64,000 nt of DNA, from positions 1-64,000 of the forward strand of contig JACDOE010000004.1 of NCBI GenBank assembly GCA_017656255.1, given 5' to 3'. Under the pieces are notes generated by a model. It did not search any database. It was not told the origin of the DNA and worked only from the letters and a program-made list of their open reading frames with translations. The translations under genes and the position numbers were made by a program. Positions 24,220-63,264 of this stretch are shown here, in pieces. Every line of letters begins with the position of its first letter. Within the stretch, counting starts at the first letter, position 1. The stretch comes from Bacillaceae bacterium (lineage in GTDB: Bacteria > Bacillota > Bacilli > JACDOE01).

Positions 24220-24309
24220 ACAACTAATATACGGTTAAACATATCCGGTGTCTCCCCTATCAATCAGGATAAACCTGATTAGCTGACAATATTATTGTAT
24301 TACAAACTA

Positions 24310-24452
24310 GAGGTGAGAAGTGAGAGATGGGAGGTGGGAACAGATGAAAGAAAGCGACGCTGTCGATTTCATCAGTAAATCTCACTTCCCACATCCCACA
24401 TCCCACTTCTCACATCCCACTTCTCACATCCCACTTCTCACCTCTCACCTCT
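24310..24452. repeat. Dispersed inverted repeat, copy 1
   Basis: Left arm is purine-rich (GAGGTGAGAAGTGAGAGATG, then GGAGGTGGGA), the core is GAAAGCGAC-gct-GTCGATTTC (24350-24370 region), and the right arm is pyrimidine-rich, with about five units of CCCACTTCTCACAT. It fills the space between the nuo promoter and the bidirectional atpC terminator. The right arm is the longest of the three copies in this window, so unit number varies. Confidence 0.75.
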
Positions 24453-24495
24453 AAAAAACCGGGTGCTCCTGTCTGACAGGATCACCCGGTTTTTT
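24453..24495. terminator. Bidirectional terminator after atpC
   Basis: AAAAAACCGGGTG-c-TCCTGTC pairs with GACAGGA-t-CACCCGGTTTTTT, one internal mismatch. The A and T runs give a U tract on either strand; the functional one ends the atp operon. Confidence 0.92.
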
Positions 24496-33182: not shown

Positions 33183-36100
33183 TCACGATGCATTCATAAG
33201 CAAATTGTATAACAACTGGGCAGCCTGGGCACGGGTTGCAATGCCATCGGGATTGAACCGGCCGCTGCTTCCCTGCATCAGACCTCTGGCAGTCAAATCA
33301 GCTACCGCTACCTGTGCCCATCCCGGGATTTGCTGCCAGTCCTGATAGGTGTTTTTCAACAGCTCCAGTGCTTCTTCAGATGTTATTCGTTCCTGTTCGT
33401 CGGACTGTTTAACAGCCAGTGCCCGTGACAAAAATACGGCCATTTGCACCCGATTCAGTGGTTGGCCCGGTCGGAATGTCTGATCTTCATATCCGGCAGC
33501 AATGCCGAGTAGAGCCGCTTTTTCTATCGATGGAAGAGCCCACTCGGGGATCTGATCCTGAAAAAGGGGCGCATCCTCCTCTCCCGATGTTTCCTCAGCG
33601 GATTCCGGCTCTACGTTCCAGTCGAATAGACGGTCCAGCAGTGTGACGAACTGGGCACGGGTCAGGGCTGAATCCGGGGCAAAACGATTTTCCGCCACGC
33701 CCTGGATCACCTCTTGATCGTAAAGTTCTTTGATTGCCGATTCAGCCCAGTGTCCCCAGGTATCCTGGAACGGATTTTTCTCATAGTAGGGAAGGTATAA
33801 TCCCCACCGGTTTAGATTAAATACCCATGTTCCGTTTTCCGTGGAACTGCCTTTTAACTTCTTCCATCCGGTGGCAGGGTCCAGATACATCAGGCCGACA
33901 TTGACATGGTCCGGCCAGTCGGACGGGTTCAGTACAACGTCGACGCCAGTCCCCATCGGTCCGGATTCCCTGTGGCCGGACGGATACAGTTCGAATCCGT
34001 AATCGACCGGGATCACGCCCGGAATTTGCATCGGAATTATCGATACCGGTGTGAGCTCAACCTGACCGGTTATTTGACGCAGGGATTCGGCATCCAGCTT
34101 CACTGACATTTCACGGCCGAGTGAGAAGGGTGGCATATCTCCTGCAGTGTCTTTCAGGTTATAGATAGCTGGTTTAACTTCCTGTTCCGGTTCATAAGGC
34201 TGGTACAGGACCAGTTCGTCAAAATAGACCGTCCCTTTTTCCGGCCGTTGCTCCGTATCTTCAGGCAGGTTGACCAGATACAGGCTGTTCAGTTTGATCG
34301 GATACGAAAGATCATAGGGAATATCCCCTGTGACATAACGCCACCCTTCCCAGTTTACTTTTTCCGCCAGATCGATGAAATGACGCTTGCCCTGACTATC
34401 ATAGACTTCAGCACGCAACCAGTGCCCGCTGTTATCTCCGTAAACCCATACCCCGATTTTCAGCGGATGGCCCGGCATTGTCATCGGCGCATTGCCCAGG
34501 CGTCCATAAGCGATGCGTACATCGTTCGCCGGTGCCTGCGAGAAATTGTAACTTAATTTGGCGGCGTGTTCCGTACGATAAACCGGTTCTCCTTTGTCAG
34601 TCTGTTTAAATGAACCGTGATCCGCAATACGGGTCGGGTGTGAAGTATGATACATGTTTTTCAGATTATCAAAGGTGAGCCACGGTTGAGGCATCGTTCC
34701 TATCCGAACCGGGATGGAGGTTGTCACACCTTCATAGCTGGCCGTGAGTGTACCGGTTCCTTTCTGTTCTCCGGCATAGAAGGTAAACCCGTCAACGGAC
34801 CCGATGGAGCCATCAACTGAAAGGCTCACACTCTCAGGTGTGGCATCAAAAATGGTTCCGTCTTTCGCCCGTACTTTAACGCTGACTTCCACCTGATCCC
34901 CTTCGCGCAGATCAATACGGGATGGTGCCACAATCAGCCTGTCAATATCTGCGGGACCCAGAACGCGTATGGGATAAACCTGTTCCACGCCTTTGTATGA
35001 AGCACGGATATTCACCGTTCCGGAGGAAGACGCGGTGAACCGATTATTTTCAAATTGACCGTGCGACCTGTCTTCCACAGACCAGTTCACATCTTCTGCT
35101 GTTAACGGATACGGATGATAATGCTCGTCATAACCCTTCACTGAAAAGGTAACCGTACTTCCCTTTAACAGGGCCTGCGGTCCGGATATGACGATCCCCG
35201 CAAATTCTCCTTTCGGAGCTGTATTGAAAATCCCGACCGCAGTCGGTACGGAACGCTGGGAACCATACTTGGGAACATTCACCAGGGAGACTTGACTATC
35301 CCCCAACTGGCGGGCCACCATCGTGGCGGAACCTCCCCCGTCCAGATTGAAAGCTCGCCAGGCCCCCAGTTCAACCATCACACCCGCGAGTTCTTCCAGT
35401 GTCATACCCCGGCTGTAAGGAACACCATCCACCGTTACCAGATACAGCATCCGGCCATCTTCAGAAACACCGGCCGCAGCACGGGGGTGAAGTCCTGTTA
35501 CATTGGGAACAATGGGGTCTATCACCTGTCCCCGATCCACCAGCAGGGCATGTCCACCAACGGCAGAGACAACGGGAACGTCATCGGGCGTGGTGCGGTA
35601 ATTCATTTTGACGGTATCGCCCCGTTCAAAATGATTTTGCAAAAATTGAGCCGCCTCTCCGTGTCCCCAGAGGACATAGCCATCTTCCGGGATTTCCGCG
35701 GCCGGCTGATTCACCTCGATATCCGTCACTTTATCATGCCGGACAATCATCTCTACAACATCGCCTTCATACTCCGGAAGCGGCCCCAGACTTGTTTTGC
35801 CAAAATAGGGAGTATAGAGGTTCAATTGATTTTCATGACTCTTGCCTGAACTCGGGTTATACGGTTCTTTATTGATACCCCGTAACGGGAATGACGTTCC
35901 GTCGGGGGCTTCCACTTCTCCCTGAAACCCGAAGTGAGTGATCAGGGCTGTGTTGTCCTGTGTGATCCCCAGACTGTAAAAGGGATCAATATGCCCCATG
36001 GACGAGATAATGTCACCCTCATCCATCACAATACCGAAGGGAGCGCCTTTCTGGTTCATATTAAAAAAATCGGCATTAACTGCGGCCACGGCTCCCTTTT

Positions 36101-36407
36101 CATTGGCCATGTTTTCTACACTCTGCCGGTCGGTAAGTATTTCATTTTTTCCGAAAAGCGGTGCGATTTTGACGTAGGGATTGTTGAGATCTACCTGCGT
36201 CACATATACATTGGATGCCTTTCCGTCGATGGTTTTTATGTATCTGAGCAATTTGACACCTTCACTGACCATTTGTTCATCGATCAGTCTAAGCGGTTCG
36301 TCGTTGGAGGCCGCCTCTGTTTTCATATAGGTAAGCGGCGACAGAAATGACGTCAACATCATGACAACAGCCATCAACAGGCGAACGATACGTTTCCCCG
36401 GTTTCAT
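33183..36407 (-). CDS. SLH-anchored surface protein with phosphodiester glycosidase (NAGPA) domain
   Basis: A 1074-residue secreted protein. Signal peptide at 1-33 (hydrophobic LLMAVVMMLTS, cleavage near EAAS). About 60-405 is a NAGPA/DUF2233 domain, the family of enzymes that remove GlcNAc from phosphodiesters; the core FNLDGGGSATMV is present. About 410-590 are bacterial Ig-like repeats, about 600-780 a beta-sandwich that may bind carbohydrate, and about 875-1074 three SLH domains (FQDTWGHWAESAIKEL, FQDQIPEWALPSIEKA, YQDWQQIPGWAQVAVA) that attach to pyruvylated secondary cell-wall polymer. It could trim teichoic or secondary wall polymers at the surface. The neighbouring mnaA makes ManNAc precursors for such polymers. 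Confidence 0.88.
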   Translation of the reverse strand: MKPGKRIVRLLMAVVMMLTSFLSPLTYMKTEAASNDEPLRLIDEQMVSEGVKLLRYIKTIDGKASNVYVTQVDLNNPYVKIAPLFGKNEILTDRQSVENMANEKGAVAAVNADFFNMNQKGAPFGIVMDEGDIISSMGHIDPFYSLGITQDNTALITHFGFQGEVEAPDGTSFPLRGINKEPYNPSSGKSHENQLNLYTPYFGKTSLGPLPEYEGDVVEMIVRHDKVTDIEVNQPAAEIPEDGYVLWGHGEAAQFLQNHFERGDTVKMNYRTTPDDVPVVSAVGGHALLVDRGQVIDPIVPNVTGLHPRAAAGVSEDGRMLYLVTVDGVPYSRGMTLEELAGVMVELGAWRAFNLDGGGSATMVARQLGDSQVSLVNVPKYGSQRSVPTAVGIFNTAPKGEFAGIVISGPQALLKGSTVTFSVKGYDEHYHPYPLTAEDVNWSVEDRSHGQFENNRFTASSSGTVNIRASYKGVEQVYPIRVLGPADIDRLIVAPSRIDLREGDQVEVSVKVRAKDGTIFDATPESVSLSVDGSIGSVDGFTFYAGEQKGTGTLTASYEGVTTSIPVRIGTMPQPWLTFDNLKNMYHTSHPTRIADHGSFKQTDKGEPVYRTEHAAKLSYNFSQAPANDVRIAYGRLGNAPMTMPGHPLKIGVWVYGDNSGHWLRAEVYDSQGKRHFIDLAEKVNWEGWRYVTGDIPYDLSYPIKLNSLYLVNLPEDTEQRPEKGTVYFDELVLYQPYEPEQEVKPAIYNLKDTAGDMPPFSLGREMSVKLDAESLRQITGQVELTPVSIIPMQIPGVIPVDYGFELYPSGHRESGPMGTGVDVVLNPSDWPDHVNVGLMYLDPATGWKKLKGSSTENGTWVFNLNRWGLYLPYYEKNPFQDTWGHWAESAIKELYDQEVIQGVAENRFAPDSALTRAQFVTLLDRLFDWNVEPESAEETSGEEDAPLFQDQIPEWALPSIEKAALLGIAAGYEDQTFRPGQPLNRVQMAVFLSRALAVKQSDEQERITSEEALELLKNTYQDWQQIPGWAQVAVADLTARGLMQGSSGRFNPDGIATRAQAAQLLYNLLMNAS

Positions 36408-36444
36408 ATCTGGTTTTTCTCCTCCCGTTTCTCCTCTGGTATTT

Positions 36445-36548
36445 GGATGTGAGATGTGGGAGGTGGGAGGTGAGATTTGTGGAACAAATTGACACCAGGT
36501 CGATTGCTTCTATATTTTCCCACTCCCCACTTCTTATCTCCCATTTCT
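36445..36548. repeat. Dispersed inverted repeat, copy 2
   Basis: Left arm GATGTGAGATGTGGGAGGTG then GGAGGTGAGA; degenerate core CAAATTGAC-accag-GTCGATTGC; right arm TTCCCACTCCCCACTTCTTA then TCTCCCATTTCT. It lies between the mnaA terminator and the start of the SLH gene and is shorter and more decayed than copies 1 and 3. The rest of 36408-36697 holds only the SLH ribosome binding site and the mnaA terminator region. Confidence 0.65.
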
Positions 36549-36642
36549 AAAATATACGTACGGGCCTGTCTTTTTGTTTCTTCTTTTTGGGTGTGAAAAT
36601 GTTACCAGTTTTGTTTTGAATTCAATTTTTCTTTATTAATAC

Positions 36643-59198: not shown

Positions 59199-59708
59199 TT
59201 AAATTTGTTCGTCATCCTCGTCGGTGTCGATCGGCGCTTCATCATCCAGGTCTTCGTCAAACTCTTCATCCAGTTCTTCCGTTTCATCTTCCTCAAAGTC
59301 ATCGTCGAAATCATCATCATCTTCTTCTTCGTCGTCATCTTCATCAAAGGCTTCATCGACGTCCACGTCATCATCTTCGTCGATGATATCTTCAAGATCA
59401 TCATCCATATCATCCCGGGCCATAAACCCTTCAGCGGCATCCTCCTGTTGATCGACCGGATACCAGCGTTTCAGTCCCCAGGTATTCTGACCGACACAGA
59501 CAAAACGGCCGTCAATATTCAATTCCGTATAGACCTGTGCCATCACTTCGTTCATCTTTTCATCAGACATACCTTTAATCTTTGAAATTTCTTTGAGAAG
59601 ATCCCGGTAATGGTAAGGTTTGCCGGATGACATCATGATTTCAAACGCGATGTCCACCATGGACATTTCCTGTTTCTGTTCCTCCGTCAACTGATTCAAA
59701 CTGCTCAC
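59199..59708 (-). CDS. rpoE: RNA polymerase delta subunit
   Basis: A 169-residue Gram-positive RNA polymerase subunit. N-terminal HARE-HTH domain (about 5-90, MVDIAFEIMMSSGKPYHYRD, NIDGRFVCVGQNTWGLKRWYP) and an almost entirely Asp/Glu C-terminal tail. It speeds recycling of core enzyme and sensing of initiating NTP levels. The start is GTG 59708 with AGGGGAG upstream; the frame is open much further but runs through repeat copy 3. pyrG follows. Confidence 0.94.
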   Translation of the reverse strand: MSSLNQLTEEQKQEMSMVDIAFEIMMSSGKPYHYRDLLKEISKIKGMSDEKMNEVMAQVYTELNIDGRFVCVGQNTWGLKRWYPVDQQEDAAEGFMARDDMDDDLEDIIDEDDDVDVDEAFDEDDDEEEDDDDFDDDFEEDETEELDEEFDEDLDDEAPIDTDEDDEQI

Positions 59709-59825
59709 CCGAGGCACTCCCCTTCTTCTTGAAGTTTCTATATCCATAATAAATCCCTTGAGAACAGAGTTACCAATCATCATAATTCTATACCAAATGG
59801 AGAAAGAAATGAAGGGAAAAATAAA

Positions 59826-59963
59826 TGAGACGGGATGTGAGAGATGGGTGATGAGATGTGAGAGGTGGGAGGTGGGATTTTCGGATGAAATCGACATGGC
59901 GTCGATTTCTTCTATTTTTCCCACTTCTCACTTCTAGTCTCCCACTTCTCACTTCCCACTTCC
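59826..59963. repeat. Dispersed inverted repeat, copy 3
   Basis: Purine-rich left arm (GAGACGGGATGTGAGAGATG through GAGAGGTGGGAGGTGGGA), perfect 9-bp core GAAATCGAC-atggc-GTCGATTTC, pyrimidine-rich right arm (CCCACTTCTCACTTCTAGTC, then TCCCACTTCTCACTTCCCAC). It ends 4 bases after the icmF stop codon and has the best-conserved core of the three copies. Confidence 0.8.
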
Positions 59964-59967
59964 AGCA

Positions 59968-62900
59968 TTACATATTGCGCCGGTACTGTCCTCCCACCTC
60001 GTAGAGTGCATCGGTAATCTGTCCGAGACTGGCCACTTTAACCGTTTCCATCAGTTCGGCAAAGATGTTTCCACCTTCTGCCGCCACTTTTTTAAGCCGA
60101 TCCAGAGCAGGACCGGATTCATCCCGGTGTTCCTCCTGAAACTTGCGGAGGTTGCGGATCTGGGTCTCTTTTTCTTCTTTTGTCGCGCGGGCCAGTTCCA
60201 GTTCCTGATCCTCTTCTTCTTTATTTTCGTTGATAAAGGTATTGACCCCGATAATCGGCAATTCGCCGGAGTGTTTCTTCATTTCATAGTACATGGACTC
60301 TTCCTGGATTTTGCCGCGCTGATACTGGGTTTCCATGGCTCCCAACACACCGCCCCGCTGGCTGATCCGTTCGAATTCCATCAGGACGGCTTCTTCCACG
60401 AGGTCCGTCAATTCTTCAATGATGAACGATCCCTGCAACGGGTTTTCATTCTTGGCTAGACCCAGTTCTTTGTTGATGATCATCTGGATCGCCAGGGCCC
60501 GGCGAACGGAATTTTCTGTCGGCGTCGTGATGGCTTCATCATAAGCATTGGTGTGCAAAGAATTACAGTTGTCATAGATGGCCATCAGCGCCTGCAGTGT
60601 CGTCCGGATATCATTGAAATCCATCTCCTGGGCATGCAGCGATCTTCCGGAAGTCTGAATGTGATATTTCAGTTTCTGGCTGCGGGCATTGGCGCCATAA
60701 CGGTTTTTCATGACGACCGCCCAGATGCGGCGGGCCACACGCCCGATCACGGAATATTCCGGATCAAGGCCGTTACTGAAGAAGAAGGACAGATTGGGCG
60801 CAAAATCATCAATGTTCATCCCGCGGCTCAGATAATATTCCACATAAGTGAAGCCGTTAGCCAGTGTAAAGGCAAGCTGCGTAATCGGATTGGCGCCCGC
60901 TTCCGCGATATGGTAGCCGCTGATACTGACGGAATAGTAATTGCGTACGTTGTTTTCCACAAAATATTCCTGAATGTCGCCCATCATTTTCAGGGCGAAT
61001 TCTGTTGAGAAGATACACGTATTCTGTCCCTGATCTTCTTTTAGAATATCGGCCTGAACCGTTCCTCGTACCGTGGACAGCGTCTGTTGCCTGATTTGCT
61101 TGTATTCGGCTTCGTCCGGTTCCCGTCCGTTTTGCTGGCGGAATTTTTCCACCTGCTGTTCGATGGCGGTATTTAAAAACATGGCCAGAATAATGGGAGC
61201 CGGTCCATTGATGGTCATGGAGACACTGGTGAGCGGGTCACACAGATCAAAACCGGCATATAATTTTTTCATATCCTCGAGGGTACAGATGCTGACGCCA
61301 CTTTCTCCAACTTTCCCGTAGATATCCGGGCGATAATCAGGATCTTCCCCATACAGCGTCACACTGTCAAAGGCCGTACTCAAACGTTTGGCTTCGCTGT
61401 TGCGGCTCAGATAGTGGAACCGGCGGTTGGTCCGCTCCGGTGTCCCTTCTCCGGCAAACTGGCGAGTGGGGTCTTCTCCCTCGCGCTTGAACGGAAACAC
61501 GCCGGCGGTGTAAGGGAATGAACCCGGAACATTTTCTTTCATCACCCATTTGACGATCTCGCCCCAGTCCTTGTATTTGGGCAGGACCACCCGGGGAATA
61601 CGGGTTCCCGCAAGCGATGTCGTATACAACGGGATGCGAAGCTCTTTATCCCGGATTTTCGTGACGAATTCATCCTTTTGATAGGCTTCCTGGAGTTCCG
61701 GCCACTGTTTGATGATTTTCTTCGTTTCCTGATCCAGTTCTTCCTGCCATGTTTCGATGGCCCGGGACAGGTCTTCATTGTCCCCGATCGTTTCACGCGC
61801 CCCTTCCAGTTGAAAAAGACGCCGTGCCGCCTCTTCCTGTTCCTTGACTTTTTTATGGTATTCCCGCACTGTACGGGCAATGTCATAGAGGTAATTGGTC
61901 TTCTCAGGCGGAATGATATCGTGATGTTGCAGAGATGAAGACTGAATGACCGGCGAAGATGCCAGGGCTTTTTTCCAGTTTTCCGGCTCGTGAACTTTTT
62001 CGATCACTTTTTCCATAAACGCCTTGAAGAAACGATTGGTTCTCGGGTCATTAAACTGGCTGGCAATGGTACCGTAAATCGGAAGTTCTTCATCTTTTGC
62101 GTCAAACAAATTATGGCTGCGGCGGTACTGTTTGCGTACATCCCGCAGTGCGTCTTCGGAACCTTTTCGTTCAAATTTGTTGATCACGATCAGGTCAGCC
62201 ATATCGATCATGTCGATTTTCTCCAGCTGGGACGGTGCACCGAATTCACTGGTCATCACATAAACGGCGATGTCAGAAACGTTGACGATACCGGCATTCC
62301 CCTGTCCGATGCCACTGGTTTCAACGATAATCAGGTCAAAACCGGCCGCTCTGACGATGGCGATGGCATCATCGATCGCTTCACTCAATTCGCTTCCCGA
62401 CTGGCGGGTAGCCAGACTACGCATATAAACCCGCGGGGAAGACAGGGAATTCATGCGAATCCGGTCGCCAAGCAGGGCGCCTCCCGTTTTTTGTTTGGTG
62501 GGGTCAACGGACAATACCGCGATGGTTTTATCCGGATAGGTAATCAGATACCGGCGGATTAGTTCATCGGTCAGCGAGCTTTTCCCGGCACCGCCGGTTC
62601 CAGTGATCCCGACAACCGGGGCCAGCCCTTTCGATGTCTTGACTTCCTGCTGAAGGGTGGCAAGCTGCTCAGTCGCCGCCGTCCACTCCTTTTGCTCTCC
62701 GTGTTGTTTGACCTGTTCCGCCAGGGTAATCATCCGGGCAATCGCCTGGTGATCCTGTTCCTTCATTTTTTCTACTTCATCTTTCAACTCACGCACGGTG
62801 GGGAAATCACACTGCTCGATCATGGACCGGATCATGCCCTGCAGTCCCATACGGCGCCCGTCTTCCGGGGAGAAAATTTTGCAGATTCCGTAATCCTCCA

Positions 62901-63234
62901 GTTCCTTGATTTCTCTGGGGATGATCACGCCGCCCCCGCCACCGAAGATTTTGATATGGCCGGCACCTTTTTCCTGCAGAAGGTCGTACATGTATTTGAA
63001 GTATTCCATATGGCCGCCCTGATACGAACTGACGGCGATTCCCTGTACATCTTCCTGAATAGCCGCCCGCACCACTTCTTCCACCGAACGGTTGTGGCCG
63101 AGGTGAATCACTTCAGCTCCATAAGACTGCAGGAGGCGCCTCATGATATTCACCGAGGCATCGTGTCCGTCAAACAGGCTGGATGCGGTCACAAAACGAA
63201 CGTTATGCTGAGGTACATAATCCCTCTCACTCAT
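59968..63234 (-). CDS. icmF: Fused isobutyryl-CoA mutase/GTPase IcmF
   Basis: A 1088-residue B12 enzyme. About 10-145: cobalamin-binding domain with the lower-axial H24 in FDGHDASVN. About 205-415: MeaB-like G-protein chaperone, P-loop 212-GTGGAGKS-219, NKFE at 352. About 535-1088: acyl-CoA mutase TIM barrel and dimer region. F580 in GVFPFKR corresponds to the phenylalanine that favours isobutyryl-CoA in characterised IcmF; methylmalonyl-CoA mutases have tyrosine there. It interconverts isobutyryl- and n-butyryl-CoA in branched-chain metabolism. Start ATG 63234 with GAGAGGAGG. Confidence 0.95.
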
Positions 63235-63264
63235 GACAATCCTCCTCTCCTTCATTCAGACTCA

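Follow-up and report, generated by a model that had tools for sequence, protein, structure and literature searches.

The window, which is the whole 64,000-nt stretch of the contig that was analyzed, contains three copies of an element of about 110 to 150 bases. The best copy (copy 1) occupies positions 59826 to 59963 and consists, as read on the plus strand, of a G/A arm of 7-nt units at 59826 to 59878, a perfect 9-bp core hairpin (GAAATCGAC-ATGGC-GTCGATTTC) at 59887 to 59909, and a C/T arm of 7-nt units at 59917 to 59963. Its canonical orientation is on the minus strand (96.3 bits with a covariance model, versus 76.7 bits on the plus strand), in the same direction as two minus-strand neighbors: the gene at 59968 to 63255, which from its relatives we take to be an icmF-type gene encoding a fused isobutyryl-CoA mutase, and an rpoE-like HARE-HTH gene (RNA polymerase delta) at 59202 to 59747. 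Copy 1 begins 4 nt past the icmF stop codon, ahead of the rpoE-like gene, and on the icmF strand a U-rich stretch comes after the copy. Among the 80 relatives compared, most likewise have the rpoE-like gene downstream of icmF, and the relatives with a short icmF-rpoE gap mostly have an ordinary terminator at the place where copy 1 stands in the window. None of the 80 icmF loci (1.79 Mb) matched the element model at an E value of ≤1. Even the nearest named relatives (best IcmF identity of about 75%, Brevibacillus) are too distant for intergenic alignment, and no empty sites were found in sister species.

Copy 2, at about 24307 to 24454, has its canonical orientation on the plus strand (104.8 bits), an expanded pyrimidine arm, and a core hairpin with one mismatch (GAAAGCGAC-gct-GTCGATTTC) at 24350 to 24370. 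It lies between two minus-strand genes and is oriented against both. Abutting this copy, at about 24452 to 24492, is a strong and symmetric hairpin resembling a terminator (AAAAAACCGGGTG...CACCCGGTTTTTT), which the consensus scan missed. Copy 3, at about 36441 to 36552, is oriented on the minus strand (96.4 bits), has an imperfect core hairpin that reads CAAATTGAC-accag-GTCGATTGC on the plus strand at 36485 to 36507, and is located in the 5' leader of a minus-strand gene encoding a NAGPA phosphodiester glycosidase with SLH domains (33183 to 36407). The initial annotation had described these three blocks, including the perfect core of copy 1, as intergenic features at the ends of operons. All three are present and are intergenic, but a position at the end of an operon does not describe copy 3 in its leader or copy 2 between two minus-strand genes, and the suggestion of a structured transcript-end element would suit one window copy at most.

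In its canonical layout the element reads (GRGAAGT/GGGAAGT)n, a short spacer, GAAATCGAC-nnn-GTCGATTTC, another short spacer and (TCTCACC/TCACACC)n, with the second arm roughly complementary to the GA-rich arm. The ends are fairly constant (TAGARRTG...CAYYTCTA), often with TA at the edge. Copies vary in the number of units, and one, at C7:7310, lacks the core. The arms had been recognized earlier as purine and pyrimidine rich, which they are, and the C/T arm as made of similar units; in addition, both arms are built of 7-nt units. Self-match in the copies of this genome was 0.50 to 0.70 at lag 7 versus 0.2 to 0.45 at other lags (shuffle P = 0.0005). Scanning de novo for complementary arms that have an internal 7-nt period recovered two of the three window blocks, the third falling below the threshold used; the same scan at periods of 5, 6, 8, and 9 returned no matches, and shuffled sequence returned none. 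The copies at 59826, 24308, and 36441 have fold energies of −70.5, −54.3, and −46.3 kcal/mol and z scores of −6.9, −6.4, and −5.0 versus dinucleotide shuffles, respectively; the folds are thus much more stable than those of the shuffled versions, in line with the single long hairpin first proposed. The perfect core of copy 1 is expected 0 times by chance in the window. A chance purine/pyrimidine skew was considered and is ruled out by the fold z scores, the lag-7 self-match, the core chance test, and the de novo period scan.

In an alignment of 12 sequences from three genomes, 85% of the core and inner-arm pairs were standard, versus 34 to 46% when the pairing was slid, and the covariation score of 0.172 was reached by 1 of 500 shuffles. 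A copy in a 16S gene (see below) carries changes in the core that include A-U to G-C and G-C to C-G. These comparisons argue modestly, in a small and related set of sequences, for a conserved hairpin. RNAalifold found no covariation in the copies of this genome alone because the core hardly varies there.

In the genome (3.41 Mb in 36 contigs), the covariance model, built from 12 copies, identified 13 clear copies with an E value of ≤4e-13, the three window blocks among them. BLAST with copy 1 retrieved the other two window blocks at E values of 1e-20 and 9e-16, plus about ten further sites in the genome. The initial annotation had proposed a dispersed nonautonomous repeat and had set two tests beforehand, namely, at least five copies genome-wide and a core alignable across the blocks beyond simple-sequence similarity. 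With 13 copies that have an alignable core and arms, the repeat passes both.

Nine of the 13 copies are in tRNA gene arrays. Eight lie between tRNA genes (Glu-Val twice, Val-Asp, Leu-Gly, Glu-Asp twice, Val-Glu, and Met-Met), and one lies just 3' of a tRNA-Met; all nine are oriented in the direction of tRNA transcription. The four copies outside tRNA arrays are the three window copies and C7:106275. By an arithmetic estimate that allows several kilobases for all of them, tRNA arrays make up well under 1% of the genome, and the concentration of copies there is therefore strong. Recombination between arrays may account for part of the spread of the tRNA array copies, whose uniform orientation therefore does not represent nine independent events. 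Most tRNA spacers lack the element. Weaker partial pieces include a lone purine arm at C11:32495 and arm fragments at C1:372444 and C1:1202049; the arm pairs at C1:372444 to 372780 and C1:1202049 to 1202434 enclose no S23 gene. In the Ser/Asp array at G000:C1:279800 to 282400, three long tRNA-tRNA spacers (226 to 274 nt) hold other structured-looking sequence, and at the end of one of these spacers is a pyrimidine arm of the element that stands alone.

Across 399 genomes of the class, the element model matched three (G000, G078, and G212) at an E value of ≤0.001 and a fourth (G022) at 0.0014, and the element is absent from most of the class. The G078 copies that were read are at ordinary intergenic sites. 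In G212, a heptamer-armed hairpin replaces helix 6 in all four 16S genes, with the junction ...AAGTCGAGCG-[ATCTGGAGG...CTTCCAGGGA]-GCGGCGGACGGG..., at a position where the 16S gene of G020 has an ordinary stem-loop of about 31 nt. G212 has a further copy in the rRNA operon, in the spacer that separates tRNA-Ile from tRNA-Ala. G022 has an ORF-less hairpin near the 3' end of its 23S rRNA. As a practical matter, the hairpin of about 100 nt in V1/helix 6 of the G212 16S genes (L073, 1462 to 1558) could disturb V1 primers and 16S trees.

The same relatives connect the element with S23/IVP genes. In both G212 and G022, the two with an assembled 23S among G000, G078, G212, and G022, a PF05635 (S23/IVP) gene is located in 23S helix 45 between arms of 7-nt units, and these are the only genomes of the 399-genome sample that were seen to have an S23 gene in 23S. 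In G022, GAGGTCAGAGATCAGA occurs in both the S23 element and the ORF-less hairpin. Among 24 S23 elements, the best arm match of the G022 hairpin and of both G065 hairpins was the S23 element of their own genome, and the G131 ORF-less hairpin resembles the S23 arms of its own genome; for the G212 ORF-less copies, the genome's own S23 arms ranked second and fourth of the 24, and the S23 arms of G455 matched better. In G065 (L176) and G131 (L179), the S23 element and the ORF-less heptamer hairpins are inside probable group II introns (the domain V match, at an E value of about 1e-4, is below the Rfam curated cutoff), with units that differ between the two genomes.

Arms of this kind are common at S23 genes. 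Within the Bacillota, 25 of about 49 S23-family loci had significant inverted arms with a lag-7 self-match of at least 0.6, each with its own unit (GTAACTA, TCAGGAG, AATGAAT, TTAGAGG, and others), and among plasmid S23 loci, including those of cyanobacteria and Azospirillum, 9 of 14 had inverted arms of 7-nt units. No such arms were found at the Avd gene of a diversity-generating retroelement (DGR) in the plasmid set. Most of the unarmed S23-family loci of the class look, by context, like prophage or DGR Avd-type genes, and bAvd matches were also seen. A pattern search for ORF-less copies with the same heptamer in the S23-containing genomes G453 and G570 returned essentially only the S23 elements themselves and one weak further site, and two cyanobacterial plasmids with an S23 gene had no clear ORF-less copies of the same unit. 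The assembly of the present genome contained no match to PF05635, and its 16S and 23S genes are absent as well; the missing rRNA genes are no evidence that an S23 gene is there.

The initial annotation knew of no named family that matches the element. This holds for Rfam, whose covariance models gave no match, but the anatomy is that of an rRNA IVS with S23/IVP, minus the gene. Like the IVS in 23S H45 of Coxiella burnetii (PMC4990558), the element is a long hairpin with arms of 7-nt units in a noncoding region that is probably transcribed, and hairpins of the window type lie in 16S and 23S in its relatives. The Coxiella IVS has a variable number of GACAGAT heptamers before the S23 start and is cut by RNase III at the first repeat, and how IVSs arose and spread and what the S23 protein does are still described as unclear (PMC4990558). 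Unlike the Coxiella type, the window element has no ORF, lies in tRNA and mRNA spacers rather than in rRNA, and occurs in many copies per genome. As the window copies are intergenic and other copies are in tRNA spacers, these are not IVSs in the strict sense of insertions inside an rRNA gene. With the S23/IVS class they do share long inverted arms that can fold into a single hairpin and that are made of 7-nt units; the ORF between the arms that marks an autonomous member is missing, which excludes an autonomous member and leaves an ORF-less one, because ORF-less IVSs exist (PMC2672173). The short ORF-less 23S IVSs of Salmonella (83 and 99 nt) are likewise short insertions without a gene but were reported in rRNA, and several ORF-less 23S IVSs had no homologous copies elsewhere in that survey (PMC2672173). 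Further likenesses are the 7-nt-repeat stem inside a structured RNA in the P6b hairpins of Nostoc trnL introns (PMC4476775) and the intergenic heptamer simple sequence repeats (SSRs) of Xanthomonas, Nostoc, and Beggiatoaceae (PMC4692102, PMC4679880); their units are other ones, there is no such core, and in the passages covered they are not tied to IVSs or S23. Xanthomonas campestris has many inverted heptamer pairs and also an S23 protein with a solved structure (XCC0516; PDB 2gsc).

We lean toward the view that the element is an ORF-less, nonautonomous, heptamer-armed hairpin of the rRNA-IVS/S23 class that has dispersed outside rRNA. Under such a scheme, copies would be transcribed within host RNAs (tRNA precursors and mRNA spacers), where the two arms would fold into long double-stranded RNA and be cut by RNase III as in rRNA IVSs such as that of Coxiella (PMC4990558). 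This cutting could explain the tolerance of copies that sit between tRNA genes or next to genes. Copies may spread in trans via an S23-type protein together with further machinery, with a helper copy perhaps residing in the unassembled rRNA operons, which is where the S23 elements of G212 and G022 sit. Preexisting RNA hairpins (16S h6, 23S H45, the 23S 3' hairpin, and the icmF terminator place) may be favored or tolerated landing sites. S23 is related to the Avd protein of DGRs (PMC10053308), which makes a route linked to RNA conceivable.

A conventional MITE or REP sequence, with its ends mobilized by a DNA transposase unrelated to S23 (RAYT/Y1, IS200/IS605, or IS630/Tc1 type), is unlikely, even though the element is dispersed, palindromic, and short, has fairly constant ends often edged by TA, and in G078 occupies ordinary intergenic sites. 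Bacillus bcr1-type MITEs are also dispersed intergenic nonautonomous palindromes, but they have a fixed sequence and termini and no arms of 7-nt units. The REP/REPIN-RAYT systems share the same general likeness and differ in their fixed sequence, their GTAG/CGTC tags or fixed termini, and their lack of 7-nt-unit arms (PMC3733652). Nothing seen at the copies supports the REP-like or IS200/IS605 nature that had been suggested; they have no known partner, and the ends of the copies read carry no GTAG/CGTC tag of the REP/REPIN type (20- to 40-bp palindrome). Instead of fixed terminal repeats, the element has arms that gain or lose 7-nt units, no constant target site duplication was obvious at the copies read (for which there is no close relative for empty-site comparison), and insertion in 16S and 23S genes and tRNA operons, together with the anatomy of an S23 element, is untypical of MITEs. 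Plasmid and phage DNA gave no match; a search of viral contigs with the core pattern gave six matches and no convincing element.

The 7-nt units could have arisen convergently by slippage, which would count against membership in the IVS class. A nonmobile origin, in which tandem 7-nt slippage enlarged existing hairpins (terminators and tRNA spacers) in situ, would account for the differences in unit number, including the expanded arm of copy 2, and for the icmF copy at the terminator place of its relatives; heptamer SSRs are, moreover, known in other bacteria (PMC4692102). We consider such an origin improbable, as slippage is at odds with a 9-bp core and spacers common to unrelated sites, with an element that recurs between many different pairs of tRNA genes, and with two arms that remain complementary. 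Most doubtful is a selected, rather than selfish, RNA element for processing or termination (e.g., tRNA precursor processing or transcript-end protection), for although the co-oriented tRNA-associated copies and the replacement of a terminator by copy 1, with its U-rich stretch, would suit it, most tRNA spacers and most of the class do without the element, the copies stand in unrelated contexts, and Rfam has no match.

IVSs, S23 genes, ORF-less rRNA IVSs, and heptamer SSRs are each already known. In a literature search that was light on subscription papers, we found none that joins IVSs, S23, and heptamer SSRs or that reports gene-less copies in tRNA operons. For the favored reading, dispersal of ORF-less IVS-class hairpins, the anatomy shared with rRNA IVSs suggests that gene-less IVS-type elements spread beyond rRNA as well. 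If gene-less copies with 7-nt arms do spread among tRNA operons and mRNA spacers, IVSs would be one face of a wider mobile class. Inverted arms of 7-nt units would then be a signature by which helpers, targets, and empty sites could be located in any genome, and a role of S23 as a mobility protein could be tested directly. A much broader proposal, which is speculative and on the whole rather unlikely, is that heptamer-armed hairpins form one cross-phylum mobile class within structured RNAs (rRNA, tRNA operons, group I and II introns, and CRISPR and other operons). S23, the Avd homologue, would be its helper, copies would enter hairpin tips via an RNA or single-stranded DNA intermediate, and the machinery would set the 7-nt period; the window hairpins would be the nonautonomous form, and rRNA IVSs, Nostoc trnL P6b hairpins, and many heptamer SSRs would be its traces.

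Several S23 loci had unusual arrangements. Inverted arms of another period were seen at L244 (G413; 11 nt) and at L283 (Gemmatirosa plasmid; 8 nt), and four S23/IVP matches are clustered at one locus at G692:C150:4002 to 8790. S23/four-helix-bundle genes were also present in CRISPR operons on plasmids of Pseudanabaena galeata (L276), Anabaena sp. 90 (L281), and Picosynechococcus sp. PCC 7003 (L279), located between cas6 and cas4 on two of the plasmids and between cas10 and cmr3 on one; the genes at L276 and L281 have clear arms of 7-nt units.
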